A stretch of DNA of 64,000 nt from a virus. Numbering within the stretch: position 1 is the first letter of the stretch; each line of letters opens with the position of its first letter. The stretch is taken from positions 21,192-85,191 of the IMG/VR virus record IMGVR_UViG_3300020392_000010. One strand, given 5' to 3'. Positions 9,476 through 47,874 of the stretch are shown piece by piece. The position numbers were made by a program, and so were the translations under genes. The notes beneath the pieces are model-generated. The model did not search any database. It had not been told where the DNA came from and saw nothing but the letters and a program-made list of their open reading frames with translations.

Positions 9476-9724
9476 ATGAAAAATTATATTAAAAATTTTA
9501 GCCAATATCAAAAGATCAACGAAGAAAAAGGTTGTAGTTATGGAAGCGATCCAAGTAACAGTGATTTTAAAATATACTCGTCTAGTGGATCATTAATGCG
9601 TACATCTAAAAATGGAAAATGCGGAGATGTAACTAGAGAAGATTGTGAAAAAGCATGTAAAGATGGTTCTATGAAGAAGCATAAAAACGGCTATCAATAC
9701 TGTGAAGGTTATCCAAAAAAATAA
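9476..9724 (+). CDS. Cys-rich small protein with capsid-targeting-like N-terminus
   Basis: 82 residues. It begins MKNYIKNFSQYQKINE, which resembles the T4 internal-protein targeting peptide MKTYQEFIAEA and ends at an I-N-E site matching the prohead protease rule (I/L-x-E). The predicted mature part (about 66 residues) has five Cys (CSYG, CGDV, CEKAC, YCEG). The next gene starts with nearly the same peptide. A TATAAAAATA variant lies 21 nt upstream. Possibly an internal head protein injected with DNA (inference). Confidence 0.7.
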   Translation: MKNYIKNFSQYQKINEEKGCSYGSDPSNSDFKIYSSSGSLMRTSKNGKCGDVTREDCEKACKDGSMKKHKNGYQYCEGYPKK

Positions 9725-9734
9725 AAGCACAACT

Positions 9735-9983
9735 ATGAAAAATTATATTAAAAATAGTGAACAGTTTATAAAATTAAACGAAAATAAAGACCAGCCTGTC
9801 TTTATTGATACTCAATGCGATGACATTCAATCATATTGCGATAGTATAAAACAGTGCTGTGCTAAAGCTAAAAGAATTAAAGGAGGTGATATGTTTCCTA
9901 AAGGCGGAGGTCAAACGTTAGAGACTCTATGCAAACAACTAAAAGAAGTTGAAGCTAAAATCAACTCAATGGTAGCGGGTTAA
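9735..9983 (+). CDS. Cys-rich small protein with capsid-targeting-like N-terminus (second copy)
   Basis: 82 residues from the ATG at 9735; the frame is open further upstream, but that part overlaps the previous gene. The N-terminus MKNYIKNSEQFIKLNE parallels the preceding protein and ends in L-N-E. The mature part differs (DTQCDD, SYCDSIKQCCAK, LCKQL) and has five Cys. The ten-base gap suggests cotranslation. The stop overlaps the stop region of the convergent uvsW gene. An internal head protein role is inferred from the shared leader. Confidence 0.7.
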   Translation: MKNYIKNSEQFIKLNENKDQPVFIDTQCDDIQSYCDSIKQCCAKAKRIKGGDMFPKGGGQTLETLCKQLKEVEAKINSMVAG

Positions 9984-11689
9984 AGATTAACTTCATGTTT
10001 TTTAATAGGAAACGATTGTTCAATGTAAATTTTTTCCCTAACCTCAGAATGACGAATTGAATATCCATCTAGTTTATCGACAAGGTCCCATATGGTGACC
10101 TTGTTTTTATTTGCAAGCTTTCTCATTCCTCGACCTATCGCTTGCCTAATTGTAATTTCAGCTTTAGTGGTTTCTGCAAAAACAATATGATGAACATTCT
10201 TAAGGTCAATACCGGTTGCAAAGGTTCCAAAACTAGCAACTATTATAACACCTTCGTTTTTTTCCATTGCATCTTTATATTCATCCCGTTGTTCACTCTC
10301 AACACCTCCATCTATGTAATAGGTGTCCCTGTTCCACTCCTGAAGTTTCTTACATATATTCTTACCATATTCGTTTTTAATATCTGAGAAGAGAATCAAA
10401 GTGTTCTTACCGAACTTTTGTATCATACCACTTATTAGGTTTAACCTCTCTTGACTTTCAAATATAATTCCTTTTTCAAGGGTTAGCATTTCTCTACCAT
10501 ACTCTTTGTTATCCTTGTACATTCGTTTAATTTCATCTGAACTCTTTCTCATTTTAATGTATTCTTGAGCTGCCGAGTTTGATTTATTATATGTTAAGTA
10601 TACCATACGAATAGATACATTAGGAGAGTACCCGTGATCTATTAAGTGCTTTGCTGAGAGAGTCATAACCAGCGGTCCGACTTTCTCCTGTATCTTATAA
10701 AAATCAGAATACTCTTCAGAAACCTTTGCGGTTCCCGATAGCCCTAATTTATATCTCCAGTTTTCACATGCTGAAATGATATTAGAGATAGATGAACCTC
10801 TAGATTTATGAGTTTCATCTACGTTAACTACACTATATGATTCAAACATTCTAAAAGATTTAGAATATTTAATTTTTTCTTTAAGATTAGTTACTTTATT
10901 AACTGCTTTTTCAAGTTCTTTTTCTTTAGGTTTTTTAAGCTTTTCCAATTTTAATTTCTTTTTAACAGCCGAGGTTAATTGAGAGTCAAGACTTTTTTCT
11001 TCAAAATTAATTAAACTCTGATATGTTGATATAACTAGATCTGCTTCTTTAAATTCCTCTTCTGAGAATTTATTTTTACCACCTATCATTAGGATATTCC
11101 AATTTACTAATCCGTTAGAATACATTTTAAATTTTTCTTCGGTTTGACCAACTAATGAAATATTAGGAACTATCATTAGGGCTTTATTATGCCTATTGAT
11201 AATCCCTTCATGTTTTAAATAAGAATTAAAGATATAAAAGATTAAGGTTTTACCTGCTGAAGTTGCAAGCTCTTGGGTACAATATTTATATTGAAGTGCT
11301 TTGTAACCTGCTTCAAATTGATAGTCTCTTGGATATATACTGTTACCATGTTCATCTATTACATTATCAAAAAGTTTATCTACAAATTCAGTGTAATTAT
11401 CTTTACTATATTCTAAATTTAAAGTTTCTTTTAACCCGGATATTTTAAAAGAGATCCCTGTTTTTTTAGAAAAAGAGTATATTTCTTTCCAAAGTCCTAT
11501 TGGTATTTCATTTTCTTTTGTTAAAAAATTATCCATACCGTCCCATATACCTCTATCTACAAGTACATTAAAATCTCCATCCTTTGATTTTTTAGTAAAA
11601 TGATCTCGTAGTCTACCTTTTTCAGTGTCGTTATCCCACTCAATTAGTTTTATAAGATTCTTAGTTTTGAATACTTTAAACTTAAGCAT
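9980..11689 (-). CDS. uvsW: Helicase UvsW-like
   Basis: 569 residues (T4 UvsW: 587). An SF2 helicase with Walker A TSAGKT, DEAH-type motif II VDETH, motif III LSGTAK and C-terminal motif VI QAIGRGMRK. T4 UvsW unwinds branched DNA and R-loops and supports the switch to recombination-dependent replication. The N-terminal roughly 110 residues are a separate substrate-binding part as in T4. It is followed four bases upstream by a UvsY candidate, the same neighbourhood as T4 uvsW-uvsY. Confidence 0.9.
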   Translation of the reverse strand: MLKFKVFKTKNLIKLIEWDNDTEKGRLRDHFTKKSKDGDFNVLVDRGIWDGMDNFLTKENEIPIGLWKEIYSFSKKTGISFKISGLKETLNLEYSKDNYTEFVDKLFDNVIDEHGNSIYPRDYQFEAGYKALQYKYCTQELATSAGKTLIFYIFNSYLKHEGIINRHNKALMIVPNISLVGQTEEKFKMYSNGLVNWNILMIGGKNKFSEEEFKEADLVISTYQSLINFEEKSLDSQLTSAVKKKLKLEKLKKPKEKELEKAVNKVTNLKEKIKYSKSFRMFESYSVVNVDETHKSRGSSISNIISACENWRYKLGLSGTAKVSEEYSDFYKIQEKVGPLVMTLSAKHLIDHGYSPNVSIRMVYLTYNKSNSAAQEYIKMRKSSDEIKRMYKDNKEYGREMLTLEKGIIFESQERLNLISGMIQKFGKNTLILFSDIKNEYGKNICKKLQEWNRDTYYIDGGVESEQRDEYKDAMEKNEGVIIVASFGTFATGIDLKNVHHIVFAETTKAEITIRQAIGRGMRKLANKNKVTIWDLVDKLDGYSIRHSEVREKIYIEQSFPIKKHEVNL

Positions 11690-11692
11690 ATA

Positions 11693-12130
11693 TTATCCTA
11701 ATAGCTTTTCTAAGTCTAACCTAGTTTTTAAACCAAATAAAACATTATCTACTGTTTTTATAGAACCATCCATAAAAGATATTTGATTTTCTATAATCTC
11801 TACTGTTTCTTGCATGTCAGTAGTCTTGCCGTCTACTATAACCTTTTTTTCATGACCCTGATATCTCATGTTTTGATTAGAAACACTTTCCCATTCTTTT
11901 CCTCTTTTTTGTCTATATGACTTTTTTAATTTAGAAAGAGTATCTATTAAAGTGTGATTATCTTCTAAAAGTCTTTGTCTTATGCTTAGGAAAAAAACCT
12001 GAACCTCTTTAAAATCTTTAATATTGCTTAACTTTTCAATATTTCTTCGAATTTCTAAAGAGTAATTATCACGCTCTTTTCTAAACTTATCAGAAATATT
12101 TTCTTTAGGGGATTTTGTAGTATTTTCCAT
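11693..12130 (-). CDS. UvsY-like recombination mediator (candidate)
   Basis: 145 residues, highly helical and charged, close to T4 UvsY (137). It sits immediately before uvsW on the same strand, as uvsY neighbours uvsW in T4. A basic SYRQKRGKEW segment and a C-terminal helix could correspond to the DNA-binding and oligomerisation parts of UvsY, which loads UvsX onto gp32-coated DNA. Sequence similarity alone is weak, so the call rests mainly on size, charge pattern and synteny. Confidence 0.5.
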   Translation of the reverse strand: MENTTKSPKENISDKFRKERDNYSLEIRRNIEKLSNIKDFKEVQVFFLSIRQRLLEDNHTLIDTLSKLKKSYRQKRGKEWESVSNQNMRYQGHEKKVIVDGKTTDMQETVEIIENQISFMDGSIKTVDNVLFGLKTRLDLEKLLG

Positions 12131-12141
12131 AAAAATATTAT

Positions 12142-13318: not shown

Positions 13319-13789
13319 TTAGGAAAAAAAGTTTATAAATTTATAGTAAGTTGATCCTACTTTAAAGTGATCTTCTGGAAAAACTTCATCTTGAGAAAGA
13401 GTTGAAACTATTTCATTCCCTATTATATTAGATTCGTCTTTGGTTTTAACATGTATATTAGGTTTATCTTTTCTACCTATTAAGTAATTTATTAAATCAT
13501 ACTTTTCAAAATCCTCTTTTTCTATTTTTAAACATTTATTAATGAATAGTGATGGGCATTTTCTAGTTCCTTTTCCAAAACCATTATAATACGATTGTTT
13601 TACGCAATTATCCTTACAGGTATTTAAAAAATTAAGATAGCCTTCCCTATCCTTGAAATTTATTATTGTAAAATTTCCAAGAGACTGTATACAATCTCTT
13701 ATAGAATTCCAGTTAGCATTAGAACTTGATTGTATGTCTTTCATTTCAAGATCATCAAACTCTTCAAAAACTTTTATGTACTTTTGCAT
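13319..13789 (-). CDS. Unknown protein with capsid-targeting-like start
   Basis: 156 residues. The start MQKYIKVFEEFDDLE resembles the KxYxxF...(I/L)xE leaders in this window, though the cleavage site is less clear. Four Cys lie in the middle (DCIQS, CKDNC, KCPS, KCLK gives five with the first). A late promoter-like AATAAATA lies 24 nt upstream on the minus strand, supporting late expression. Function unknown; an internal head protein is one option. Confidence 0.65.
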   Translation of the reverse strand: MQKYIKVFEEFDDLEMKDIQSSSNANWNSIRDCIQSLGNFTIINFKDREGYLNFLNTCKDNCVKQSYYNGFGKGTRKCPSLFINKCLKIEKEDFEKYDLINYLIGRKDKPNIHVKTKDESNIIGNEIVSTLSQDEVFPEDHFKVGSTYYKFINFFS

Positions 13790-14476: not shown

Positions 14477-15022
14477 ATGAAAAATTTAGTAACCAAATAT
14501 AGCGATTTTATATTTGAAAAAAAGAAATCTTCTTTAAAAGGTATTTCTTCTGAAAATATTATTAAAAAAATAGAGGCAGTAATGGATGTATTGCCTAACG
14601 ATGTACAATTTGGAGTACCCTCTGATAATTTAGGCCAATCTACTTCCTATAAGTCTCCAGGTGACGCTATTCAAAGAATAAAAGATATCACTCATTACTA
14701 TAATAAGAGAAAAGAAGATGTTAAATTCTACTGCTGGTCTATTACTTTTAAAGGAGACTTTAATGCTTCACAAGAACTTGAAGATAAAATGGAAGAAGCA
14801 GATGGATTATTTCATGAAGATAAGGCTAAGTATGGAAAAATAGACATGATAAAGGTTAGAGATTATGTTCAAACAAATCCAGAGGACGCAGATGAATTTA
14901 AAAGTTTTTCAATATCATTAGATAGCGCCTCTTCTAGAAAATTTGGTATGAAACTATCATCTGGAACTTCTAATGATAAAACAAAAGAGAAAGAATCAGA
15001 AGAATCTGAAGATGAATTTTAA
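14477..15022 (+). CDS. Unknown protein with capsid-targeting-like start
   Basis: 181 residues. The N-terminus MKNLVTKYSDFIFEKKKSS fits the leader pattern KxxxxYxxFIxE, with I-F-E as a possible prohead-protease site. The C-terminus is a Ser/Glu/Lys acidic tail (KEKESEESEDEF). The middle, with FYCWSITFKGDFNAS, looks folded, alpha/beta. It lies between the P-loop kinase and the ligase/nucleotidyltransferase gene. No family recognised; packaging into the head is inferred from the leader only. Confidence 0.65.
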   Translation: MKNLVTKYSDFIFEKKKSSLKGISSENIIKKIEAVMDVLPNDVQFGVPSDNLGQSTSYKSPGDAIQRIKDITHYYNKRKEDVKFYCWSITFKGDFNASQELEDKMEEADGLFHEDKAKYGKIDMIKVRDYVQTNPEDADEFKSFSISLDSASSRKFGMKLSSGTSNDKTKEKESEESEDEF

Positions 15023-15047: not shown

Positions 15048-16961
15048 ATGGCAGGAATAAGACACTTAAAAGAAGTCCATGATAAAATGGGAGAAGACTT
15101 CTTAAATAAATTATTTAATGAGTACCTTATAGTTAATGAAAAAGTAAATGGAAGTTTTCTAGGATTTAAAAAAGACAGAGAAAATGACGAATTTAAATTC
15201 TTTAATAAGAGAAACGAAATAGGTTACATAGATAGGGTCTTATCAAAATTTTATAACGATCCTATTAACCATATTAAAAATTTAGAAAAAGACAAGATTC
15301 AAAAAATTCCATCGAATATGTATTTTGGTTTAGAATACATATCTAATACCTCATCAAATGTAGAAGATTATGGAAGATTACCGAAAAATGGATTATTACT
15401 TAATTTTATACACGAATTAGACGAAGAAGGTGGGGTAATAAAAACAATACAAGATAAACATATACTAGATGAATGGGCTAATTTTTTAGAAATAGATGGA
15501 CCAACTATAGTTTTTGAAGGAAAATTAAACGATGATCAAAAAGTTGAAATCATGGATTTTATATACAGCCCTGCTGAAGAACTATTAGAAAAATTTAAAA
15601 CGAGATCTTTTATAAAATACGTTATATCTATTTTAAATAAAGATTTTAAAGAAAGTTTTTTAGAAAATAGCATAGTTAGAGATATAAACGGATTAGTGTT
15701 TAGATTTTACGAAGGGGATAGAGAAAATCCTAGTTCAAAATCTTTTCTTGCTAAATTAATAGACCCTATATTTCAAAATAAAATGAGTACCCAAGAGGTA
15801 AAAAGAGAAGAAAATAAATCTCAAGATTATACATGGTTAATTGTAATAGATTTAATGAATTTTATAGAAATGTATGACCTAAAAACAATCAATAGTTGGA
15901 AAATAGTAGGAGATTCATTTCAAGAAAGATATGTTAAATTTGTAAATAGAGTATTTAGAGAATTTATAGATAAGTATAAAGACAAATACGAAGGAATACA
16001 ATTAAATAAACCTGAGTTTCTAGATAGTGATGAATTTGATCTAAATATGGACATGATAAATGATCCATATATTATAGATTTAATAAAAGAAAGCGATACA
16101 AATAAAGAAATTTATAAAATCCTATTAAACTTTTTTAGAAAAAAAAGAAAAAAAGTAAATTCTAACCTATTTGATAGTAATCTATTAAAGCAACTAAATA
16201 TACAGGTTGATAAGATAAAAAAGATTTTGTTGAAAGAAAAGGTTTTTGAAGGGTTTTTTCCAACGTTTAACGAGTATGTAGGCGAATCAGGAGAGTTTGA
16301 ACCAATGACAATTCAAGGTTTTTCAAAAGAAAAAAGATCAATAGCTAAGCCTAAAAAAGTAAATCTGCTAATAGGCGATTTTCAACCTATACACTTAGGG
16401 CATATAAAAGCTGCCGAAAAATTAAAATCTAAAAACAATTTTCCAGTAGTATTAATAGCAGTTGTTAAAAATGAAAAAAATAAGAATAATCCATTTTCAG
16501 AAGCATCTATTAAAAAAATGCTAAATGACGTTGAACAAGAATATGGAAGCTTTATTGAAAAGGCAATTATATTAAAAACAGGTGGAATAGAAGAAATTAT
16601 AGGTTCTTTAAAACCATCTTATGTACCTATATTATGGGGCACTAATAAAAATAGACTAAATAGATACGCTATTCAATTAGGGTATTTAAAAAAGAGAGAC
16701 GTTTCACTTGACTTAAATAAGGATTTTAAGCTAGTTGAAATACCTAAATTTCAATCTTCATCTGAAATAAGAAATATTATAAAAGATGAAAAGTACAAGG
16801 AGTTTAAAAGACTTGTACCAGATTCAGTAGTTTCTAATTTTTATAATTTAAAAAAAGAAATAGATCAATTAAATGAATCTAAAAAAGAAACTATTTCTGA
16901 GATAAATAATAAAGAATCTAATATCTCAGAAAATGAAAAAGAAATCAAAGAAGAACAGTAG
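15048..16961 (+). CDS. Fusion of nucleic-acid-ligase-like domain and HxGH nucleotidyltransferase
   Basis: 637 residues in two enzymatic parts. Residues about 1-275 resemble an ATP-dependent RNA/DNA ligase: motif I EKVNGS (K32), motif III YFGLEYIS, motif IV DINGLVFRF and a motif V-like SFLAKLIDP. Residues about 435-600 are a nucleotidyltransferase of the HIGH superfamily: LLIGDFQPIHLGH (H449, H452) and the C-terminal SSSEIRNI, as in NMN adenylyltransferases and cytidylyltransferases. A helical linker joins them and includes FFPTFNEYVGES, reminiscent of the head-targeting leaders. Roles in nucleic-acid repair and NAD(P)/cofactor metabolism are inferred. Confidence 0.7.
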   Translation: MAGIRHLKEVHDKMGEDFLNKLFNEYLIVNEKVNGSFLGFKKDRENDEFKFFNKRNEIGYIDRVLSKFYNDPINHIKNLEKDKIQKIPSNMYFGLEYISNTSSNVEDYGRLPKNGLLLNFIHELDEEGGVIKTIQDKHILDEWANFLEIDGPTIVFEGKLNDDQKVEIMDFIYSPAEELLEKFKTRSFIKYVISILNKDFKESFLENSIVRDINGLVFRFYEGDRENPSSKSFLAKLIDPIFQNKMSTQEVKREENKSQDYTWLIVIDLMNFIEMYDLKTINSWKIVGDSFQERYVKFVNRVFREFIDKYKDKYEGIQLNKPEFLDSDEFDLNMDMINDPYIIDLIKESDTNKEIYKILLNFFRKKRKKVNSNLFDSNLLKQLNIQVDKIKKILLKEKVFEGFFPTFNEYVGESGEFEPMTIQGFSKEKRSIAKPKKVNLLIGDFQPIHLGHIKAAEKLKSKNNFPVVLIAVVKNEKNKNNPFSEASIKKMLNDVEQEYGSFIEKAIILKTGGIEEIIGSLKPSYVPILWGTNKNRLNRYAIQLGYLKKRDVSLDLNKDFKLVEIPKFQSSSEIRNIIKDEKYKEFKRLVPDSVVSNFYNLKKEIDQLNESKKETISEINNKESNISENEKEIKEEQ

Positions 16962-17431: not shown

Positions 17432-19126
17432 ATGAATTTCCTGAATAAAATAAAGGGTTTTAACTTTTCAAATAAACTTTTAGAGGAAACCAAAGAAACC
17501 ATAGATAAAGACATAGAATCTATAGGTAAAAGATTAGAGGACGAAGTAGGAGGAAACGAAGATGAAATTATTATAGATTCTATACTAGACGACATTTCAT
17601 ACGAAATATTAAATAGAAAAGATGAAGAAAAAGTAGATGATGTAATTAAAATTTTTTCAGACTCTAAAAAAATAGACTATTTTTCTAAGTATAAAGAAAA
17701 TAAATCTAAAAAGATTAATAGTATAAGTAAGTCTTTAAATAAAATATCTAAAAATTTATACAGCGATAAAGATAAAGAGAGGGAAAAATCAAACAGTGAA
17801 TTTATAACAGCAGTTACTAATCTAAACCTTGAAATAGATAGGGCTAATAAATTAACTGAAATATACAAAATAAATTCAGATAAAGAATTAGACGAAAATT
17901 CAAACGCTGAAAAAACAAAAAAATTAGCTGAAAAAAATTCTTTCATTGAAAAGGCTATTTCTGCCTATAAAAAATTAGCTAAAAAAGTAATAAGCCATCT
18001 TAATAAAAGAGTAGATAAGAATATTGAGGAAGATAATGAAATGATTATTGATGACATAGAAAACACATTTGATGAAAGTGGAATATCAGTAATTAACATA
18101 AATATCAATGGAAAAGAATTAAACGTACAAGACGAAATAGAAAAAGTAAAGAAAAAAGAAGAAATTAAAAAACCCCAAGAAACAAGAAGTCAAAGGTCTT
18201 TTATAAAAGAAACTATATCTAAATTAAAAAATTCATATATACCAGAGGAAAGAGATGGTATTATAATTAAACCAGGCGGATTTTTTAGTAATGTTCTTAA
18301 TATAAAGTCTTCATATAACGATGTTCTTTTAAATATAATACAGCGCCGAGCCATTGATTTAGGCGAAGACATGTCTTATTTGGAAAAAGAAAGCACCGAT
18401 GTTAAACATCAAATAGCATACTTAGAATCTACTAAATATTTTTTAGATTATATGATAGATACATACATAACAATTAAAAAAGATAAAGACAAATTAAAAA
18501 GATTAGTCAATACCATATATCTAGATAAAGCTGCCTATATAAGAAATAAAAATTTAGCTAGAAAAATAAATATGTCAGATTTTGCTGGATTAAAAATAAA
18601 AAGAGAAGTAAAAATACCTCTTTATAAAACAGTTAACATTCCTATTTCTAATAAAGATATAGTTGCTAATTCTAAATTTAGCAAATTTAAAGAAGCTATG
18701 AAAGGTTTATCTGGTATAATGGGATGGCAAAAAAGTTACGTCGATCAAGGTAGGGCAAGCGCAAATAAGCAACAAAATAAAGCTATTCTTCAAGGAATTA
18801 CTAATATTTCTAAATCTATAGCAGGGGCATTAGGTGGAGATAAGGCTAAGAATAGAGTAGACCTAGCATCTAGAAGAGTAGGAAATACTCTTAATTTAGA
18901 ATTGAAAGAAGATATGATAGCACCTATAGATTCTGGAGGATCTCCAGGTACATCTTTCGATACACCTCAGTCACTCGCAGGTGGAATGGATATGTTTTCT
19001 AAACTAGGACCGGGTAAGCCTCTAAAAAGAAAGAAAAGAAAAAAGAAGAAGAAAAAGAAATCTAAAAAGACTACAAATGCTATTATATCATTTGACACAT
19101 TTATAAATAAAAATAAATCCTTTTAA
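17432..19126 (+). CDS. Unknown coiled-coil protein with poly-Lys tail
   Basis: 564 residues. The first roughly 270 are highly charged, probably long coiled coils (Lys/Glu/Asn-rich). Residues about 275-440 look folded and helical, followed by a Gly/Ala/Ser-rich part. The end carries a basic block KRKKRKKKKKKKSKK at about residues 532-546, which could bind DNA or another polyanion. A late element precedes the gene and a second one lies inside its 3' end for the next gene. A virion or head-interior role is inferred; no homologue recognised. Confidence 0.75.
   Translation: MNFLNKIKGFNFSNKLLEETKETIDKDIESIGKRLEDEVGGNEDEIIIDSILDDISYEILNRKDEEKVDDVIKIFSDSKKIDYFSKYKENKSKKINSISKSLNKISKNLYSDKDKEREKSNSEFITAVTNLNLEIDRANKLTEIYKINSDKELDENSNAEKTKKLAEKNSFIEKAISAYKKLAKKVISHLNKRVDKNIEEDNEMIIDDIENTFDESGISVINININGKELNVQDEIEKVKKKEEIKKPQETRSQRSFIKETISKLKNSYIPEERDGIIIKPGGFFSNVLNIKSSYNDVLLNIIQRRAIDLGEDMSYLEKESTDVKHQIAYLESTKYFLDYMIDTYITIKKDKDKLKRLVNTIYLDKAAYIRNKNLARKINMSDFAGLKIKREVKIPLYKTVNIPISNKDIVANSKFSKFKEAMKGLSGIMGWQKSYVDQGRASANKQQNKAILQGITNISKSIAGALGGDKAKNRVDLASRRVGNTLNLELKEDMIAPIDSGGSPGTSFDTPQSLAGGMDMFSKLGPGKPLKRKKRKKKKKKKSKKTTNAIISFDTFINKNKSF
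19025..19069 (+). repeat. Poly-Lys coding tract
   Basis: An AAA/AAG/AGA run encoding 14 basic residues out of 15 at the C-terminal side of the 564-aa protein. The purine-only run is a possible slippage site. Confidence 0.7.
19102..19109 (+). promoter_or_regulatory. Late promoter-like element TATAAATA inside the previous gene
   Basis: TATAAATA lies within the last codons of the 564-aa gene, 19 nt before the ATG at 19129 of the two-helix membrane protein. This is the canonical spacing seen at other virion genes here. Confidence 0.5.
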
Positions 19127-19128: not shown

Positions 19129-19380
19129 ATGCAATACGTTAAAGATATTTTTACAGAAGACAAAAATGATGGAAAATATTCATCTAAAAAGACATTAGGT
19201 ATAATTTCAGGTGTTTTAGTATGTTTAGCATTTTTAGGAGATGGTTTTCATTGGTTTACAGTAAACGAAGGATTATTTAATTCAATGTTAATATTTTCTG
19301 GAACCATGCTAGGCGTATCTACTGCGACTAAAATATTTAAAAAAAGTGAGCCTGTAAAAAGCGAAGAAAGTAATGGTTAA
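19129..19380 (+). CDS. Two-helix small membrane protein, holin candidate
   Basis: 83 residues with a charged N-terminus, two hydrophobic segments (GIISGVLVCLAFLGD, about 25-42, and SMLIFSGTMLGVSTA, about 53-67) and a Lys/Glu tail. Size and hairpin topology fit small phage holins, and a late element precedes it. The endolysin is not adjacent (12142-12978, other strand), so the assignment is by topology only. Confidence 0.5.
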   Translation: MQYVKDIFTEDKNDGKYSSKKTLGIISGVLVCLAFLGDGFHWFTVNEGLFNSMLIFSGTMLGVSTATKIFKKSEPVKSEESNG

Positions 19381-19798
19381 AAATTACAACAAATATCTAA
19401 AAGAAAATTGCGGCTGTATTGGAAATGAAGCTAGTGTAGAAATAGCTCCTATAGAATTATTTAGTAAAATAGCTAATTCTCTACCAACTAAACAGGATAC
19501 ATGTCCTAGTTGTTCTAAATTTCCAGAAGATTGCGGCTGTAAAGGAAATTGTGGGAATTGCGGCGATGAAAATGGAAATTGTGATTGTAGTATTAATCAG
19601 GACATATCAATAGGTGATATGGTTAGAAATGTAAACCAAAGCTGTCCTCAGTTTAAATCAGTAGGTAGAGTTGTAGATATGCCTAATAACAATTCCGTAA
19701 CATTTACTGTTGTAAGACCAGGCGGAGATTCTTCAATAGGCCAGTTGTTAAACGCTACTAGGGATCAAATTACAGTAGACGAGAAATATCGTATATAA
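19373..19798 (+). CDS. Cys-rich protein with capsid-targeting-like start
   Basis: 141 residues, overlapping the previous gene by 8 nt. The N-terminus MVKNYNKYLKENCGC fits the head-targeting leader pattern, with L-K-E as a possible protease site. The middle contains closely spaced Cys: CPSC, CGCKGNCGNCG, CDC. This resembles metal-binding or disulfide-rich small domains. The C-terminal half (ISIGDMVRNVN...GRVVDM) looks like a small beta-barrel, SH3-type. Function unknown; an injected internal protein is one option. Confidence 0.65.
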   Translation: MVKNYNKYLKENCGCIGNEASVEIAPIELFSKIANSLPTKQDTCPSCSKFPEDCGCKGNCGNCGDENGNCDCSINQDISIGDMVRNVNQSCPQFKSVGRVVDMPNNNSVTFTVVRPGGDSSIGQLLNATRDQITVDEKYRI

Positions 19799-19860: not shown

Positions 19861-21900
19861 ATGGGAGAAGGTAGGTTTCCAGGTTTGAACATAGGCAAAG
19901 GCAATGGTCTAGAAAATTTAAATATAAAGAACATTTTAGGGGGAAAAGCAACTGATCCATTTAGAACAGGAGGTAACGGTGCAGCCGGCGATGCTTTACT
20001 TGAAATGCAAGAAGTAGATTTACAAAAAGATGAAACTGCACGTATTCCAAATACACAGGAGGAAACAGTAAAAGCGGCTCCCTCTAGGTTTAACCCATTT
20101 AACGTATTTAGATTTAGAAAATTTGGTTTAGCACAGGGTGCATATGATTTAAAAAAGCATTCAGATACTCACCTTTATGGAGCAAGTGAAGGTTTAACGG
20201 CTCCTAAAGACCAAAACGTATTTAGTCAAGCTTTTAATTACATTAGTAATGTTCCTATTTCAAAAGAAGATGATCTTAAAGACTTTAATGTTGGAGAATA
20301 CCAAAAAACACAGAGAAACCCAACCGCTGCTCAAATAATAGAAAATTTTAGAGACGATAGTAATTTTAAAGTATTAGGACCTACTCCATTTGCATACAAT
20401 GATTTTATATTTTGTACACACTATGGTAAAATACCAAATAATAGATTAATTGCGCTTAGAAGATATCCGGGACCGGTTGAAGATAGCCTAAGACAATTCA
20501 ATGCCGCAGCTGAAGAGGTTGTTAACGTTCCACTTGCACAGGCCCTTACCTATTATGGAACTGGAACAGGTAACGATATAAATAACGTATTACCAATTAG
20601 CTGGGACGTTCCATGGGAGAAGAAAACCGCAGAGGTTAATGAGATTGACGGAAATGAAATACTTGTAGACGATGTAATAGCAGCAGCAGGTATTGAAAAA
20701 GGAGATAAACAGGCTTTAATTAGAGCCGCGATAGCTTCTCAAAAGGGGAACCAAGGTGCTCTTGAAGTAGCTGGATATGATAAAGAATTACAAGACTATA
20801 TTAGAAAAGCATATGGTCCGGATGGCCCGTACTGGAACAGGGTACTAGGACCTGTGAATGTTGTAAATTCAACTAGAATGAGAAAAAGAGGAATGGGAAC
20901 AACTATGTTTGATGCTCCTATTAAGCTTAAATTCAGTTATACTTTAAGATCATTTAATTTTGTTAACCCAAGGGTTGCATTTTTAGATTTAATGACAAAT
21001 ATATTGAGTCTTACATATAACACTGCTCCTTTTTGGGGAGGAGGATATCGATACTTTAAGAATCCAGGGGTGACTATTTCAAGTGCAGGTAGTGCATTAA
21101 TAGAACAGGGTAAAATAGTAGAAGGTGTAATATTAACCCTTAATGAATGGATGAAAAGCGCATCTGGAGCAACTGCTCAATTATTAAATCAAGTATCTGA
21201 CGCTCTTGAAAAAACAACTGGTGGAAAGCCACCAACAAGAAAAGAAACCCCATTAAAATATAGAAAAGCAGATGGTAAAACTTTAACTCAAACGGGTATG
21301 GATTTAACAAACGCAGTAATGGCAGGTAGGGCTGAATCTCTTATGCAAGCCCCTCTTTCATATAGGTCTCTGCTAGAAGGCCGGCCTGTTGGAGAATGGC
21401 ATATGACAGTAGGTAACCCAATGGACCCAATGGCAGCTATGGGTAACCTAATATGCACAGCCTGTGATATGAAATTTAGTAACGAACTAGGGGCAGATGA
21501 TTTTCCTAAATCAGTTGACTTTACAGTTACCCTTACTCATGGAAGACCTAGAGCCAAGCAAGATATAGAGAGTATATTTAACCTAGGTGGAGGACCTTTA
21601 TCATTCAGCAAAGTTGTTGCTCCAAGTTCTACTAAAAATACATTCGGAGGAGAGCCTAGTAATCTAACCAATATGGAAGGAGCAGAGGGTAATGTTAAAG
21701 TAGGCGTAATTAGGGGAAGCGGAGGCGCTAACACAGGCGTTAGTGAATATAATTTACAAGAAAAAGAAGCAGAGTATAAAGCCGATCCTCTTAAAGGTGA
21801 TGACAGTAACCCATATGCCGGAAGAGTAGGTAATCACTATGGTTCTATTTTTGGAAATTCCTCTCTTTTAAAGGATTACATAAAAATGTCAGCTACATAA
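19861..21900 (+). CDS. Large baseplate/tail structural protein
   Basis: 679 residues. N-terminal Gly/Asn-rich part, then a large mixed domain (PTPFAYNDFIFCTHYGKIPNN). The C-terminal part contains GEWHMTVGNPMDPMAAMGNL and FPKSVDFTVTLTHGRPR, a pattern I associate with tube-like tail or baseplate proteins of large myoviruses. Its stop overlaps the start of the gp53-like gene (TAATG) and it heads the operon containing hub, tube-like and spike genes. The exact T4 equivalent is uncertain. A TATATAATA lies 20 nt upstream as a weak promoter candidate. Confidence 0.7.
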   Translation: MGEGRFPGLNIGKGNGLENLNIKNILGGKATDPFRTGGNGAAGDALLEMQEVDLQKDETARIPNTQEETVKAAPSRFNPFNVFRFRKFGLAQGAYDLKKHSDTHLYGASEGLTAPKDQNVFSQAFNYISNVPISKEDDLKDFNVGEYQKTQRNPTAAQIIENFRDDSNFKVLGPTPFAYNDFIFCTHYGKIPNNRLIALRRYPGPVEDSLRQFNAAAEEVVNVPLAQALTYYGTGTGNDINNVLPISWDVPWEKKTAEVNEIDGNEILVDDVIAAAGIEKGDKQALIRAAIASQKGNQGALEVAGYDKELQDYIRKAYGPDGPYWNRVLGPVNVVNSTRMRKRGMGTTMFDAPIKLKFSYTLRSFNFVNPRVAFLDLMTNILSLTYNTAPFWGGGYRYFKNPGVTISSAGSALIEQGKIVEGVILTLNEWMKSASGATAQLLNQVSDALEKTTGGKPPTRKETPLKYRKADGKTLTQTGMDLTNAVMAGRAESLMQAPLSYRSLLEGRPVGEWHMTVGNPMDPMAAMGNLICTACDMKFSNELGADDFPKSVDFTVTLTHGRPRAKQDIESIFNLGGGPLSFSKVVAPSSTKNTFGGEPSNLTNMEGAEGNVKVGVIRGSGGANTGVSEYNLQEKEAEYKADPLKGDDSNPYAGRVGNHYGSIFGNSSLLKDYIKMSAT

Positions 21901-22499
21901 TGATTACTTTAAAAACATTATTAAATAAGTACAGTGTTACTAAAGAAAACGGAGATGTTTTACCAGACATAACCAGGGGTTCTATAAACATTGATCGTAA
22001 AGATGAATTAAGATCATCTAGTAGGGTTATAGTCGATGAAGACACTGTTATGAGACCTGATCTTATTGCTGTTGCTCTATACAACGACCAAAGCATGCTA
22101 GACTTATTGTTAAAGTACAATGCAGTTTCAAACCCATTTTCATTATATGTAGGTCAAATTCTATATGCGCCAAATGCAGATGACCTGGCTAAAATAGTAG
22201 AAACTCCTTCGGTAATAAAAGACATAGGGGACGTACAAGTAGACGAAACTGAATCAATATTTGTTGATCCAAAAACAGATAAAGATAAAAATAGACTTGA
22301 CCTTCTTAAAAAACAAAATAAAGGAGGCGAAGTGTTACCAAGTAACGTAAATAAAAAAGGAGATAAGAACATTAAAATTAAAAATGGAAAACTTGTATTT
22401 GGAGAAGACGTTACTTCTGTAAATAGAGAAGACTGTCCAGAACCAATATCTAGAGCCAATCTTAAAAAAGCATTAATAAAAAATAACCTTTTTGGATAA
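21900..22499 (+). CDS. gp53: Baseplate wedge protein, gp53-like with LysM-like part
   Basis: 199 residues. Residues about 55-95 read RPDLIAVALYND..LDLLLKYNAVSNPFSLYVGQILYAP, the gp53/LysM-like pattern (aromatic, NP-x-S/L, G-x-x-L-x-x-P). T4 gp53 links wedges to the hub in baseplate assembly. The start and end overlap neighbours as TAATG, so the operon is translationally coupled. The remaining C-terminus is Lys-rich and less conserved. Confidence 0.7.
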   Translation: MITLKTLLNKYSVTKENGDVLPDITRGSINIDRKDELRSSSRVIVDEDTVMRPDLIAVALYNDQSMLDLLLKYNAVSNPFSLYVGQILYAPNADDLAKIVETPSVIKDIGDVQVDETESIFVDPKTDKDKNRLDLLKKQNKGGEVLPSNVNKKGDKNIKIKNGKLVFGEDVTSVNREDCPEPISRANLKKALIKNNLFG

Positions 22500-23941: not shown

Positions 23942-23951
23942 ATATTAATAT

Positions 23952-25076: not shown

Positions 25077-25096
25077 AATAAATTGTAGAATAATAC

Positions 25097-28967: not shown

Positions 28968-28976
28968 ATTTATAAA

Positions 28977-32493: not shown

Positions 32494-32497
32494 TTGT

Positions 32498-33355: not shown

Positions 33356-33356
33356 G

Positions 33357-33992: not shown

Positions 33993-34597
33993 AAAGATTT
34001 AAATTTTTCTATTGATATTTTAGGTAATGAATCTATTTTACTATCTTGACTTAAATTATAAAAGTCTACGTTTCTTTTATTTAATTGTAACTTTAATACT
34101 CTATAGCCTTCGTTAACTTGTTTCAATTTATTCATTTGCGATAAAGGATGATCACCATCTTTTATATAAAAGTGATGAGGTGTAAAATCAACGCCTATTA
34201 ACCCTATTTTTGAAAAACCCATTTTATAAGCTATGCATACGGCTACATAAGGTGAATTTAAACAGTAATCAACTTTATTATCTGAATCTAGATTGGAAAG
34301 CCTACGATTTCCTAGCTCAAAAATTATTGTTTTTTTATTATTCCAGCCTTTTACGCATGTAAATAAAGCTTTAGTAGAAGATTCAGTTATTAAATTTCTT
34401 CTATTTTGATTAAATCTAATTGGGTGATCTGTTACTACTAAATAAGTAGGGGTAAATAGTGCTGGTACATCATTAACACCTATTGTTATAAAGTTTTTAT
34501 AGTTACTTTTTATTTTATTTAAAGACACGCCGCAACCGCATACTATAACAGACTCTCCTTTATGAATATTTTTAAAGTTTGATAAAGTATTTGTCAT
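33989..34597 (-). CDS. Glycosyltransferase/DUF115-like protein, first gene of sialic-acid operon
   Basis: 202 residues from the ATG at 34597; the frame is open to 34648 but the extra part looks random and runs into the dnaJ leader. GESVIVCGCGVSLNK, FITIGVNDVP, YLVVTDHPIRF and IGLIGVDF match the DUF115-like protein at 25864-26472 in order. It starts the leftward neuA-neuB operon with a 4-nt overlap. A glycan-transfer role is inferred. Confidence 0.65.
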   Translation of the reverse strand: MTNTLSNFKNIHKGESVIVCGCGVSLNKIKSNYKNFITIGVNDVPALFTPTYLVVTDHPIRFNQNRRNLITESSTKALFTCVKGWNNKKTIIFELGNRRLSNLDSDNKVDYCLNSPYVAVCIAYKMGFSKIGLIGVDFTPHHFYIKDGDHPLSQMNKLKQVNEGYRVLKLQLNKRNVDFYNLSQDSKIDSLPKISIEKFKSL

Positions 34598-34652
34598 TTT
34601 CGATATATAAATTAAACTACATTGTTTTATACAAAAAAACCTAATCAATGTT

Positions 34653-35669: not shown

Positions 35670-37673
35670 GTGAATAATTCAAGCTTAAAACCAAGTAATT
35701 TCATAGACGTTTCTGATAAAAAAGAAAATGATTTAGTATTGATCGTTGAAAACGTAGGTGAAAAACTTAATGTAAAAACCAATGAAACTAACAACACTAT
35801 TTTAGAAGGTGTATGCGCAGTTTTTGGACAAAAGAATAACAATCAAAGAGTTTACGAAAAAGATGAATACTTGCCTCATCTAGAATACTTAAAGGAAAAA
35901 ATTAAGACAAGGCAACTTGTTGGAGATTTAGATCATCCGCCTTCTTTTGAAGTTACTCTTAAAAGCGCTTCTCATATAATTGAAGGCTTAGACCATGATG
36001 GAGGAGATAAAGTAAACATTAAACTTAGAATTTTAGAAAACACGCCAAATGGAAAAATTGCAAAAGCATTAATAGATGGAGGAGTTAATATATCTATTTC
36101 ATCGAGAGCAGCAGGTCAAGTTTTAAACGAAGGTAAAGTTAAACTTCATAGAATATTTACATACGATTTAGTTGCTGAACCGGGGTTTACAGAAGCTGTT
36201 TTAAAGAAAACAGTTAACGAATCCTTAAAAGAAAATTTCGAAATGATAACTGAAAATTATAGTTTATTAAAAGAAAATTCTTTTATAAATAAAGAAAAGT
36301 TAGAAGATATCTCTGAAAATTTAAATTTTTCAAATAATTATAAATTTTACAAGATAAATAACAAAAATAATAAAGAGCTGACTAATAGTTTAAGCAATCA
36401 AAATAATAAGAGCAAAATGAACGAGTATGTTAATAAAAATGATATGAATCATTATACTGAGATAGTTAAAGAGAAATTTGAATCATTACAAGCTGAAATG
36501 GACAAAATTAAGTCTGTTAATGAAGCTGATTCAAAAGAGGTGAAAACAACAGATGTTTCACCAACTTCAGGTATTGGAAAATACGTTAATTATTTAGCTG
36601 AAAAAGTAGAAAACTTAACTAAGTACACTGACTACTTGTCTGGTAAATTAAACCAATCTGTTAAGTACACTGAACATGTAGCCGAAACTACTAACAATAG
36701 TATAGAATATCAAAACTACATTGGTGAAAAACTTAATCAGAGTTTAAATTATCAAAACTATTTAGGTGAAAACTTAAATAAAAGCATTAATTACCAAGAT
36801 TATTTAAAAGAGAACTTAAATAAAAGTATTAATTATCAAACATACCTTGCTGAAGAATTAGATAAAGGCATTCAATATACTGAATATGTAGCAGAAGGTG
36901 CTAATAAAGGAATTGAATTTGCTGAATATATTGCTGAAAATGCTCAAATGAATAGAGAATACGTTGAATACGTAGCAGAAAAATCTTCAAAAGGAATTAG
37001 TTATGCTGAATATATTGCTGAATCATTAAACTCAGGTAAATTTACTCCTAATTCTAACTTATTAAGCAATGTTAGCGGATTAAATGAAAACAAGCAAATT
37101 GAAATGATTACTGAAGGAATAGATGCTGTAATAAACACAGTCAAAAGTGAATCAGCTAGTGCCGTACTAGAAAATAAATATCCTTTCTTAAAAGTATTAT
37201 CTGAAAAGAAAAAAGAAGCATTTTATGATCTAGATACTAATACTAAACAAGCTGTTGTAGAAGCAGTTAGAGCTTCAGTATGGTTTAATGAAGCAGATGT
37301 AACTGGTATTATTAGTGCAGTCGTAGAAAACGCTAATAAGTCTATTCCAAACCATCTTAGATATATGCCAGATGAGTATAAAGCATCTTGGGAGAAGATG
37401 AATGAAGCTGAAAAAAATCAAATTCATACTAAAACTCAACTTTATACTTTAAATACTCCTTATCAAGTTAAATCTTTCTGGGATGAAATAGATTTCAGAG
37501 GAATTAATGAAAGAATTGAAAGAGAAAAAGAAAATAGAAAATTACAACAAATCAACGAGAGCCAAAGTACAGAAGGTGCAATCCCGGTAGACAGGGTAGT
37601 TGATATGACGAGAGGTTACTCTCAGACTTACATAGACTCTCTTATGAGAGGTGCGGAAAATCGCAACAAATAA
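35670..37673 (+). CDS. Prohead protease gp21 fused to scaffold gp22-like core protein
   Basis: 667 residues, GTG start. Residues about 35-185 are a T4 gp21-type (S77) protease: NQRVYEKDEYLPHLEYL, GDLDHPPSFEVTL (H89), NISISSRAAG (Ser 142-145) and YDLVAEPGF (D166). An Asn-rich linker (about 225-249) follows, then a scaffold part with eleven exact-length 14-residue repeats (305-458) and a helical C-terminus ending in LQQINESQS, a likely I-N-E cleavage site. In T4, gp21 and gp22 are separate genes. An internal ATG at residue 250 may yield free scaffold. Confidence 0.85.
   Translation: MNNSSLKPSNFIDVSDKKENDLVLIVENVGEKLNVKTNETNNTILEGVCAVFGQKNNNQRVYEKDEYLPHLEYLKEKIKTRQLVGDLDHPPSFEVTLKSASHIIEGLDHDGGDKVNIKLRILENTPNGKIAKALIDGGVNISISSRAAGQVLNEGKVKLHRIFTYDLVAEPGFTEAVLKKTVNESLKENFEMITENYSLLKENSFINKEKLEDISENLNFSNNYKFYKINNKNNKELTNSLSNQNNKSKMNEYVNKNDMNHYTEIVKEKFESLQAEMDKIKSVNEADSKEVKTTDVSPTSGIGKYVNYLAEKVENLTKYTDYLSGKLNQSVKYTEHVAETTNNSIEYQNYIGEKLNQSLNYQNYLGENLNKSINYQDYLKENLNKSINYQTYLAEELDKGIQYTEYVAEGANKGIEFAEYIAENAQMNREYVEYVAEKSSKGISYAEYIAESLNSGKFTPNSNLLSNVSGLNENKQIEMITEGIDAVINTVKSESASAVLENKYPFLKVLSEKKKEAFYDLDTNTKQAVVEAVRASVWFNEADVTGIISAVVENANKSIPNHLRYMPDEYKASWEKMNEAEKNQIHTKTQLYTLNTPYQVKSFWDEIDFRGINERIEREKENRKLQQINESQSTEGAIPVDRVVDMTRGYSQTYIDSLMRGAENRNK
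36582..37043 (+). repeat. Eleven tandem 42-bp (14-aa) coding repeats in scaffold
   Basis: Each unit follows (Y/F)xx(Y/H)(L/V/I)x(E/G)xxxxxxx, for example YQNYLGENLNKSIN. Eleven units without any gap cover residues 305-458. Period 14 equals two heptads, so a continuous coiled-coil rod is expected. The DNA copies have diverged at synonymous sites, so the repeat is maintained at protein level. Confidence 0.95.
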
Positions 37674-37690: not shown

Positions 37691-39394
37691 ATGTCACGTA
37701 CAAAAGTTTTTAAACGTACTTCAGATTCTAGAATCCTTAATACTTGGAAGCCATTATTGGAAAGCCATGGTGTTAGTGCTGAAAGCGGGAAACAAGAGTG
37801 GTTAGCAGAATATGCTCACAACCATGCTATTTTTGATAATAGCGCTCCTGTATTTGAGCAAACTGCACCTGGGTTGTTTTTTCAACAACCAGGTTCTGTA
37901 TTAGGTAGAGGCGCTGCTGTAGCACCTACTGCCAGTCAGACGCCTTTTTCAGATGCTGGTGTTAAAGGTTCTTATGCCGATTCTGGTTCTGGAGATAAGT
38001 TTCCATCGTTACTTCCAGTTGCTATTCAAGTAGCTGCAAAAACGATTGGGTTTGATCTTGTTCCTGTTGTGCCTATGGATTCTCCTGTTGGGTTCTTACC
38101 TTACTTAGATTATTTATATGCAGGCGGTCGAACAGATTCAGAATTTGAACCATATATGGTTAAAATTGAAGGAGCAACAGTAGATGCTCTTGAAACTGCA
38201 GGTTTCGCCGGAGTTAATGACGGAACAAACGCCAATCAGGCAATCACAATCGCTGGTGCTCAAGGTTCTTACGAATTAGTAGGATTCTCAAGAGTAGATG
38301 GTTTATTAATAATGAAAGTTCTTAATGACGGTCTTAACCCAGCTGCAAGTGTTGATGCTGACCTTTCAGGTAATAATATTACTGCGATTGGTTCAACGAA
38401 CGGTACTTTCCAAATAGCTGGAGCGGTATCATTGGTTTCTGCTTTAGAAAACCATATCTCTGGATTTACATCTCAGTCAACTGAGGTTCAAGATCCTGAT
38501 TTTGTTGGTCCTTACTTACCTGAAACAGGTGGTGTTCCTGGATCAATGACAAGAGAACAAAGTGAATTGTCTAAATACAGACAAATGGGTCTTAGAATGT
38601 TCACTAAATTTGTTGAAGCTAAATCTGATCAAGTGTCTATCTCAGCATCTGTTGAGCAGATCCAAGATCTTAACAGAGTTTGGAACTTCGACGTTATCTC
38701 TATGTTAGAGAACGTTGCAGTTAACGAACTTGCACAGTCTATCAACAAAAGATTGGTTGACAGAATCTTCACATTAGCTGATGATCACAATGTTGAAGTA
38801 AACATGGTAGAGGGCGCTGGAATCACTACACTAGACTTAAATGCTGGTACCGGTGGTTTTGAGAACACTTCTACTCTTCAAAGAAGATTAGTCACTAAGA
38901 TTCTTGAATTAGCAAACTTAATTTACCATAGAGGTAGATTTGGTGCTGGTACATTCATGATTACCAACGGTAGAGTTGCATCTGCATTAGCTGATGTTGC
39001 TGGTTACTCAATTGCACAGGCTCCATCTGATATGGGCGGTGTTGCTGGTAACCTATACCCAGCTGGTAAAGTTTATGGTGTTCAAGTATATGTTGATCCT
39101 AACTTAAGCTTTGGAGATTCTAGAATCTGCATTGGTCGTAAAGGATCTGATGAAGAACCAGGTGTTAAATTCTTACCATATATTATGGCTGAGTCTTTAC
39201 AAACTATCTCAGAAGGTACTTTCTCACCAAAAATTGGAATGAAATCACGTTATGCGATTACTGAAGCAGGATGGCATCCAGAAACTCAATATGTAAATAT
39301 GGAAGTTACTGGAGACTTAGCTGTTCTTACAGGCGGAGCTGCCCCAAGTGGACCAGCTACACCATCACCAGTTGCACCAATAGTTGCACCATAA
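37691..39394 (+). CDS. gp23: Major capsid protein, T4 gp23-like
   Basis: 567 residues (T4 gp23: 521). T4-type features: PIRSL-like N-terminal arm, EWLAEYAHNHA with a probable protease site after L-A-E (residue 40), GAKSDQVSIS-like core (FVEAKSDQVSISASVEQIQDL), ANLIYHRGRFGAGTFMITN and GMKSRYA..EAGWHPE. Codon use is visibly less A/T-biased than neighbours, as expected for the most abundant phage protein. Ends in an Ala/Pro-rich tail and is followed by a strong terminator. Follows the protease-scaffold gene by 17 nt. Confidence 0.95.
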   Translation: MSRTKVFKRTSDSRILNTWKPLLESHGVSAESGKQEWLAEYAHNHAIFDNSAPVFEQTAPGLFFQQPGSVLGRGAAVAPTASQTPFSDAGVKGSYADSGSGDKFPSLLPVAIQVAAKTIGFDLVPVVPMDSPVGFLPYLDYLYAGGRTDSEFEPYMVKIEGATVDALETAGFAGVNDGTNANQAITIAGAQGSYELVGFSRVDGLLIMKVLNDGLNPAASVDADLSGNNITAIGSTNGTFQIAGAVSLVSALENHISGFTSQSTEVQDPDFVGPYLPETGGVPGSMTREQSELSKYRQMGLRMFTKFVEAKSDQVSISASVEQIQDLNRVWNFDVISMLENVAVNELAQSINKRLVDRIFTLADDHNVEVNMVEGAGITTLDLNAGTGGFENTSTLQRRLVTKILELANLIYHRGRFGAGTFMITNGRVASALADVAGYSIAQAPSDMGGVAGNLYPAGKVYGVQVYVDPNLSFGDSRICIGRKGSDEEPGVKFLPYIMAESLQTISEGTFSPKIGMKSRYAITEAGWHPETQYVNMEVTGDLAVLTGGAAPSGPATPSPVAPIVAP

Positions 39395-41695: not shown

Positions 41696-42490
41696 ATGAA
41701 AAATTTTATAGAAACATTTAAGATATTTGAATCAAAAAATCGGGTAAACGGATTAGAAGAGTTTATTAACACGTTAAAGGAAAATTTTAAAGAATATCAC
41801 AGTGTAATAGATGATTTAAAATCATACATATTAAAATCTGGATGCGAAGCTATTGGGTTTGACACCCTATATGGTGCTTCTGGAATATCAAAAACCGATA
41901 AATGTGTAATTGCAGATAAAGTACTTAAAGAACCTATTGAAAAAGCACTTTACGTAATACTTCACGAAGTATCTCATCAGTATCAATATTCTAAGTATGG
42001 AAAAAACGTAATGTGGGATTCATATAATTCTAATATAGATATAGAAAAAGCGGTCGACCTGCTAATGAATATTGAATTAGTAGCAGATAGATTAGCTATT
42101 ATCAAAACTAAACATTTATTAGATTCAAATGGCGTAAAAAACTACAAAGAAGTAACGGCAGTCTATCCTAAAATGTCTAGGCAATATTTTAAAAGTCATT
42201 TAGAATCCTTAAGAAAAAGCGTAAATGATAAAAAAATAGAAGACGTAGATGGTGTAAACAATATGATGCACAATAAACTTAAAGAAAAACCAAAACCTAT
42301 TGTATTTAAAAATCATAATAGACCAAAGCCTAAGCAATTTAAAAATCAAATAGAAATAGATAGAATATTAGATAAATTATCCGATACAGGCTGGTCTAGT
42401 TTAACTGACTCTGAAAAATCTACATTAAGATCTGCTAGTAATAAACCAAGTAGTAAGCCGCCTAGTAGCAATCAGTTAAACCTATTTTAA
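41696..42490 (+). CDS. Zinc metalloprotease-like protein with capsid-targeting-like start
   Basis: 264 residues. MKNFIETFKIFESKN resembles head-targeting leaders (I-F-E site). Zinc motif VILHEVSHQYQ (H90, E91, H94) with a downstream IELVADRLA (E127/D131) as third ligand. After a Pro/Lys-rich linker comes DKLSDTGWSSLTDSEKSTLRSAS, a short helical module seen at C-termini of Bacteroidota proteins. The last residues QLNLF match the bacterial sliding-clamp-binding motif. A packaged and injected protease is a possibility (inference). Substrate unknown. Confidence 0.7.
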   Translation: MKNFIETFKIFESKNRVNGLEEFINTLKENFKEYHSVIDDLKSYILKSGCEAIGFDTLYGASGISKTDKCVIADKVLKEPIEKALYVILHEVSHQYQYSKYGKNVMWDSYNSNIDIEKAVDLLMNIELVADRLAIIKTKHLLDSNGVKNYKEVTAVYPKMSRQYFKSHLESLRKSVNDKKIEDVDGVNNMMHNKLKEKPKPIVFKNHNRPKPKQFKNQIEIDRILDKLSDTGWSSLTDSEKSTLRSASNKPSSKPPSSNQLNLF

Positions 42491-47230: not shown

Positions 47231-47339
47231 ATTTTTTTTTACTAATAAAACATGATTAGTTTTTAAGATATGTATATAATATACCAAATAAATAACATAT
47301 ATAAGTATCCCTATTGATAAAAAGACGGTTACTTATAAG

Positions 47340-47347
47340 GATAAATA
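47340..47347 (+). promoter_or_regulatory. Late promoter-like element GATAAATA
   Basis: GATAAATA (within AAGGATAAATAACT), 21 nt before the ATG at 47369, in the divergent gap with gp39. Confidence 0.55.
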
Positions 47348-47368
47348 ACTAAAATAATACACACACAA

Positions 47369-47602
47369 ATGAAGAAGAATGTTGTAATGAACCACGCTCA
47401 ATTCATGGCTGCTGCCAATGCAGCTGCTGCAAAATACACTGTTAAAGCTAATACTGCTCAGAAAGATGAAAGCGGTACTAAAGTAAAACAAGATTTATCT
47501 AAAGTTGAGGGACAGGGTACTGCTTCTATCCAAAGATTTACTAAGTCATTTTTAGCAAAAGCTAAAAGTAAAAAAGTAGTAGGCGGAGGAAAGAAAAAAT
47601 AA
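47369..47602 (+). CDS. Small basic Ala/Lys-rich protein
   Basis: 77 residues. Starts MKKNVVMNHAQFMAAANAAAAKY and ends KAKSKKVVGGGKKK. Strongly basic, helical, with no Cys. Codon use is close to that of capsid genes, suggesting high expression. A late element precedes it. It may bind DNA inside the head or be a minor virion protein (inference). Confidence 0.65.
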   Translation: MKKNVVMNHAQFMAAANAAAAKYTVKANTAQKDESGTKVKQDLSKVEGQGTASIQRFTKSFLAKAKSKKVVGGGKKK

Positions 47603-47613
47603 TTCATAAAAAC

Positions 47614-47874
47614 ATGAATACTAACAAAGCTTTAAGTTTTGAGAAATTTTCTGTCCTTGAAAAAAAGGGAGCTCTTAAAAAATTAGTTGGAAAAGATCCA
47701 GATGAGGAATTAACAACTAATGATGCTAAAAAACTAGGAAAGAAAATAGCTAAAATGGACGGTAAAAATAAAAGAAAATACGTAGGTATTATTAATTTTC
47801 TAGGCGCTTCGTGTGATATTTACAATGAGCTTTGGAAAAATTACACTAAAACTAGAGATAGTTTAGCAGACTAA
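47614..47874 (+). CDS. Small basic protein with capsid-targeting-like start
   Basis: 86 residues. The start ALSFEKFSVLEKKG resembles the head leaders, with V-L-E as a possible protease site. The mature part is Lys-rich and helical (DAKKLGKKIAKMDGKNKRK). Follows the 77-aa gene by 11 nt and precedes the tail-tube operon. Possibly an internal head protein. Confidence 0.6.
   Translation: MNTNKALSFEKFSVLEKKGALKKLVGKDPDEELTTNDAKKLGKKIAKMDGKNKRKYVGIINFLGASCDIYNELWKNYTKTRDSLAD

Follow-up and report, generated by a model that had tools for sequence, protein, structure and literature searches.

Why should phage proteins that are otherwise unrelated begin with the same short leader? The question is raised by a stretch of 64,000 nucleotides (hereafter the window), bases 21192-85191 of the 85,191-base virus record IMGVR_UViG_3300020392_000010; coordinates refer to the window unless marked "contig". 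An earlier reading of the letters, called here the original prediction, had described at least six proteins whose leaders resemble capsid-targeting signals ending in a prohead-protease site. Our analysis indicates that these leaders are quite likely T4-type signals for capsid targeting and processing, greatly expanded in number and probably docking like the repeats of the scaffold.

Genes were called by a simple longest-open-reading-frame (ORF) script, which is a limitation. Twelve environmental relatives of the contig (G000) were found, and large parts of nine were read; those cited below are G002, G005, G007, G008 and G010. Large parts were also read of three huge phages (LR756501, 735 kb; LR756502, 642 kb, of which 351 kb entered the leader test; LR756500, 462 kb), PAU, PTm1, Lak-A1, T4 and P-SSM2.

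Leader Proteins and Their Match to the T4 Signal

All six N-termini that had been named are found at their predicted places, each with [ILV]-x-E (Table 1; genes are named by their leftmost position). As had been claimed, no similarity was detected among the mature parts, and several members are Cys-rich: the products of 19373 (11 Cys, the highest), 9476 and 9735 are the top three of the contig in Cys. The start of 9735 is an ATG within a longer GTG ORF. The two weaker members that had been listed, 13319 and 3357, both lack [ILV]-x-E, although two orthologs of the latter, in G005 and G010, bear the leaders MKSFIKTRSQLNE and MNNHTLNMNQFLNE. Searching beyond the window added about ten leaders in the 21 kb of contig to its left, including MNSYIQNYANWSRVFE on a cell-wall hydrolase (contig 2726-3529), as well as MNKHIFSYYDFIKE, MKIVKSFNQWQSLNE, MIKSYEQYIKE, MKNYIKNFKGFIAE and MKHNKQHIKKIEDFLNE. 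The total is about 15-18 leader proteins in 85 kb, with leaders of 11-16 residues, mainly on the + strand, the strand of the capsid and tail genes. The family is genome-wide and larger than the named set, not a closed set of six.

In T4, the leader of internal protein (IP) III, MKTYQEFIAE, directs targeting mainly through residues 4 and 7 and processing through residues 8 and 10; an Asp at position 10 blocks processing and leaves targeting intact (PMC9026906). The longer start MKTYQEFIAEA, ascribed to the T4 internal proteins in the original prediction, holds for IPII and IPIII. Our strict class, [FYWIL]xx[FYW][ILV]xE, has the spacing of Y4, F7, I8 and E10 of IPIII; in the loose class, the aromatic pair and [ILV]-x-E are retained and set apart by 1-3 further residues. 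The 116 strict-class leaders of six phages mostly carry Y/F, F/Y, I/L/V and E at these positions, which were built into the search pattern; the independent part of the agreement is that it occurs at gene starts and not at internal Met residues.

Excess at Gene Starts

The loose motif occurs within the first 28 residues in 14 of the 49 + strand genes of the 85-kb contig; 300 shuffles gave a mean of 2.5 and a maximum of 7. On the - strand the count is 6 of 67 (shuffle mean 3.05). Four - strand pattern matches (window 27597, 43841 and 52225; contig 6348) were rejected as chance, as they fall within the expected background. With a stricter core, 12 of 114 genes match (shuffle mean 1.4), a count reached in 0 of 2000 shuffles; for the window's + strand alone, the figures are 4 of 32, a mean of 0.35 and 1 of 2000 shuffles.

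The huge phages behave alike. In LR756501, the strict class is present at 71 of 1060 gene starts vs 19 of 2990 internal Met residues (p 5e-26, for genes that are not independent: the 71 leaders form 50 mutually dissimilar groups, two of them with 11 paralogs). The corresponding counts are 30/706 vs 3/1417 in LR756500 and, with the looser class, 90/522 vs 39/1377 in LR756502. A pattern-free comparison of N-termini between non-homologous proteins gave 13 similar pairs vs 0 for the present contig, and 344 vs 55 and 1058 vs 42 for huge phages. No leader excess was found in PTm1 by pattern, pattern-free or shuffle test. Two smaller relatives, G002 and G010, are without excess by the pattern-free comparison, although G002 is positive in the pattern test. 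The whole genomes of T4 and P-SSM2 contain leaders (IPII and IPIII; several MKSF/MRTF proteins), too few to beat shuffles.

The Protease-Scaffold Fusion and Its Repeats

The S77 prohead protease is fused to the scaffold in one gene, with the gp23-type capsid gene immediately downstream, an arrangement of the T4 gp22 type. Every 14 residues, between 36582 and 37022, the scaffold presents Y-x-x-Y-[LIV]-x-E (e.g., INYQTYLAEELDKG and IQYTEYVAEGANKG). It holds ten strict copies of the motif and every other contig protein at most one; the scaffold alone is motif-dense, so the leader motif is also its building motif. The scaffold is also the most motif-rich protein in the tested leader-bearing relatives and huge phages, weakly so (3 copies) in the 462-kb phage. 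Motif repeats of 14 residues are absent from all T4 proteins. In an AlphaFold model the repeats are helical, at low confidence (mean pLDDT 46).

A position matrix derived from the scaffold was tried as an independent predictor of leaders and rejected, as 2-9% of N-termini pass it vs 1% expected; support for mimicry is thus confined to the core positions and does not extend to the whole profile. In LR756501, the protein ranking next after the scaffold in motif copies has 1691 residues (21458-26533, - strand); it combines hydrophobic repeats with seven copies resembling FVKYIIE.

Conservation and Swapping

The leader varies among the orthologs of 47614 (ALSFEKFSVLE, ITKFSQFALLE, ITKFEDYYLAE); strong conservation sets in precisely behind the E. 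Other orthologs switch spacing class, FIFE alternating with FVAINE in the 14477 family and FLNE with YLEHINE in that of contig 19911-20363, so that both classes amount to a single signal. At the PhoH-helicase locus, which is syntenic, there are two leader proteins here, one in G002 (156 residues) and one in G005 (181 residues); the leaders of the three phages are alike and the mature domains unrelated, the 9476 leader being 69% alike in G005. This resembles the internal-protein loci of T-even phages, where the leader is constant and the mature part changes (PMC3012670). The original reading of a capsid-targeting leader cut by the prohead protease is well supported by a cognate S77 protease, the match to the T4 positions, the scaffold core and the conservation step after the E.

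Tags at Other Positions

Versions of the tag at the C-terminus and inside proteins likely exist, judging from two families. In six phages, the 17432 family carries a C-terminal tag of the [FxxF] type (IISFDTFINKNKSF, ILSFKDFISAGRK, VVKFDDFISGNR), in two cases borne by a short ORF of its own; the tag is retained in G002, G005, G007, G008 and G010. In the 15048 protein, the first part is ligase-like by eye and the second cytidylyltransferase-like; in its family, Fx[DE][YF] is retained where the first part ends, even in members without the second domain. As Asp10 in T4 stops processing and not targeting, tags lacking the E may be targeted but uncut, and the 47369 product is a possible member of this kind. 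The protein encoded at 49338-50267, after a tail-tube-like gene, has CYSEGPD repeats at its end and an N-terminal YNFDQYMD with Asp replacing Glu; inside it is FTKFINE, which recurs in G005.

Leader Dialects and Putative Cargo

About 30 to 90 leader-bearing genes were found in the 735-, 642- and 462-kb phages. Many leaders of LR756502 read MKHLKxYKIFES, the dialect of this phage; its first 100 kb are dense in small genes with this leader, 11 of 33 having related mature parts and most others none. PAU uses leaders of the type MK[ST]xxxL[YF]E, a pattern written after the sequences were seen, on 19 proteins for which no resemblance was detected past the leader, among them the annotated scaffolding and internal capsid proteins. 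By N-terminal sequencing, the mature PAU capsid protein comprises 520 of 585 residues (PMC5646251), and L-M-E64 lies within one residue of this published cut. In Lak-A1 (MK250016, 390 kb read), non-homologous proteins share 147 N-terminal pairs vs 43; the sequence differs (YESLFDD) and is possibly another dialect.

Pfam matches among the huge-phage leader proteins include LRR, methyltransferases, PPK2, polynucleotide kinase phosphatase, DeoC/LacD aldolase, radical SAM, HNH, RNase T, HAD and DHH; on the present contig, the match is the cell-wall hydrolase. Judged by the internal-Met rate, chance accounts for about 9% of the strict calls in the 735-kb phage, so the cargo status of single enzymes is unproven, and most cargo is without known function. 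The 41696 product, with its HExxH, is a possible zinc peptidase; its structure model has a body of moderate confidence and a disordered leader, and no solved structure matched it by sequence or by fold. Ribosomal protein S21 of huge phages has published basic/aromatic N-terminal extensions (PMC7162821). It was rejected as a hidden leader protein, as it bears no such leader in the 735- and 642-kb phages.

Proposed Mechanism and Alternatives

At the sequence level, the evidence consists of a shared leader, conserved motif positions, a cognate protease, scaffold repeats and swapped mature domains; location in the virion, cleavage, docking and injection of the leader proteins are what we infer from it. 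Late in infection, the leader would dock its protein on the core of the assembling prohead via the aromatic pair three positions apart. As Y-x-x-Y-[LIV]-x-E is also displayed by the 14-residue scaffold repeats, the leader would plausibly pack as one more repeat. Upon closure of the shell, the scaffold-fused protease would cut after [ILV]-x-E, degrade the repeats and free the cargo inside the head, where it would stay with the DNA and, by analogy with T4, probably be ejected into the next host.

Some points weigh against this mechanism. Some leader genes adjoin a head-tail adaptor gene, so that part of the bearers might belong to the connector and not to the head interior. The patterns were picked after the sequences had been seen, with a background of 2-3% for the loose class, and the scaffold-derived matrix predicts leaders just modestly.

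Among the alternatives, the best placed is that the destination of the leader proteins is the tail, neck or baseplate, or that the leader is a tag for assembly which the protease leaves uncut. The adaptor neighbors would fit, as would the frequent absence of the E from C-terminal and internal versions, but the core is that of the T4 capsid-targeting sequence and of the scaffold repeats, and most N-terminal leaders conserve [ILV]-x-E; we regard it as unlikely. An address for another compartment of the infected cell, e.g., the replication zone or the membrane, would suit short, basic, aromatic leaders. It is very improbable given that four key positions are identical with the mapped T4 signal and that the protease-fused scaffold is dense in repeats of the leader core. 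Least credible is an artefact of composition, in which an AT-rich genome (29.5% GC), favoring Lys/Asn/Ile/Tyr codons near starts, yields chance look-alikes rich in K/N/Y/I, as residue-preserving shuffles reach 1.4 against 12 observed, internal Met windows 2% against 15.5%, PTm1 is without excess and orthologs retain the motif.

Capsid targeting of the T4 type thus remains the preferred reading. A bolder version of it, which we offer tentatively and with some doubt, is that each leader is a detachable duplicate of one scaffold repeat: the scaffold would be a series of about ten docking modules, a one-repeat tag at the N-terminus, the C-terminus or a linker would load any protein into the head, and huge phages (up to 735 kb) would load dozens, enzymes included. 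Such likeness to the scaffold repeats would account for the reading of the tag and provides modular tags with which proteins could be loaded into very large heads.

The idea of a packaged effector set stands only in part. Some members are at variable loci (9476/9735) or enzyme-like (the HExxH protein and the cell-wall hydrolase); others, 47614 and contig 19911-20363, are conserved in all relatives and core-like, and two of the listed members have no cleavage site. The leader would provide a readable sequence rule, predicting from the genome alone which among hundreds of unknown proteins encoded by uncultured huge phages travel in the virion and therefore act in the first minutes of infection. 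Since T4 IPI, IPII and IPIII, which have such a leader, inhibit distinct GmrSD restriction enzymes (PMC12373910), lists of leader proteins are candidates for counter-defence screens.

Genome Setting

Judging from its gp20 portal, gp23 major capsid protein and S77 prohead protease, the phage is T4-related. Among deposited phages, its capsid protein is nearest to the uncultured 462-735 kb huge phages and Lak phages, followed by Tenacibaculum, Flavobacterium and Chryseobacterium phages and PAU, which makes a Bacteroidota host likely. The sequence TATAAATA, the T4 late-promoter core, lies upstream of 8 of 49 + strand genes vs 1 of 67 - strand genes of the contig. The family B DNA polymerase is apparently split, with its N-terminal part at 60505-61920 (-) and its C-terminal part at 4957-6402 (-); G002 and G005 have an ORF similar to the latter. 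A block of sugar-related genes (25864-34648) has tail genes on one side and capsid genes on the other. By eye, it encodes a NeuB-like synthase (32498-33355), a CMP-sugar synthetase-like protein (33357-33992), a GH16-like protein (27597-28301) and glycosyltransferase-like proteins.

Table 1. Leader-bearing, tagged and head-related genes of the window.
Feature	Coordinates	Strand	Leader, tag or site	Remarks
gp20-type portal protein	339..2078	-		
Weak member	3357..3782	-	without [ILV]-x-E	N-terminus differs from leader-bearing orthologs
82-residue Cys-rich protein	9476..9724	+	MKNYIKNFSQYQKINE (9476-9523), site INE	variable locus adjoining PhoH/helicase
82-residue Cys-rich protein	9735..9983	+	MKNYIKNSEQFIKLNE (9735-9782), site LNE	
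Weak member	13319..13789	-	MQKYIKVFEEF, without [ILV]-x-E	aromatic pair
181-residue conserved protein	14477..15022	+	MKNLVTKYSDFIFE (14477-14518), site IFE	orthologs FLFE, FVAINE
637-residue protein	15048..16961	+	internal tag FNEYVGE (16266-16286)	tag between its parts
564-residue protein	17432..19126	+	C-terminal tag IISFDTFINKNKSF (in 19076-19123)	without E
141-residue protein	19373..19798	+	MVKNYNKYLKE (19373-19405), site LKE	
S77 prohead protease fused to scaffold	35670..37673	+		PF03420, E 7.6e-11
gp23-type major capsid protein	37691..39394	+	LAE40 and [VLI]FE56	conserved, in N-terminal region
264-residue protein	41696..42490	+	MKNFIETFKIFE (41696-41731), site IFE	invariant HExxH
77-residue protein	47369..47602	+	N-terminal [YH]xxFM kept	without E
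86-residue protein	47614..47874	+	MNTNKALSFEKFSVLE (47614-47661), site VLE	conserved in all relatives

Comparison with Known Systems

The literature search, with subscription journals mostly outside it, returned no paper joining "huge phage" with "capsid targeting", and for "capsid-targeting" with "jumbo" the SPN3US paper alone. As is proposed for the present phage, the giant phages SPN3US and phiKZ remove N-terminal propeptides from many head proteins by a gp21-related protease; theirs, however, are mostly longer than 100 residues and cut at S/A-x-E, with no confirmed counterpart of the gp22 scaffold (PMC5694885), whereas the leaders here have 11-16 residues and end in [ILV]-x-E, so that long propeptides of the SPN3US/phiKZ type do not describe them. 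In phage P1, the N-terminal 30 residues of DarB are enough to bring a reporter to the capsid, but the Dar proteins have no consensus and there is no separate scaffold (PMC9024508). The Tenacibaculum phage PTm1 likewise encodes prohead protease and scaffold in one gene upstream of the capsid gene; in contrast, its fusion has no motif repeats and its genome no leader excess.

The closest likeness is to T4 IPI-IPIII, otherwise unrelated proteins with aromatic-x-x-aromatic-[IL]-x-E in about 10-20 N-terminal residues (Mullaney and Black; PMC9026906, PMC3012670), together with a gp21-type protease and a constant leader at variable loci. T4 has three such proteins plus Alt; the numbers are about 15-18 in 85 kb here and, for the huge phages, 30 to about 90. 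In contrast to T4, the leaders here fall into two spacing classes, the tag likely also occurs at C-termini and inside proteins, and the scaffold consists of motif repeats.
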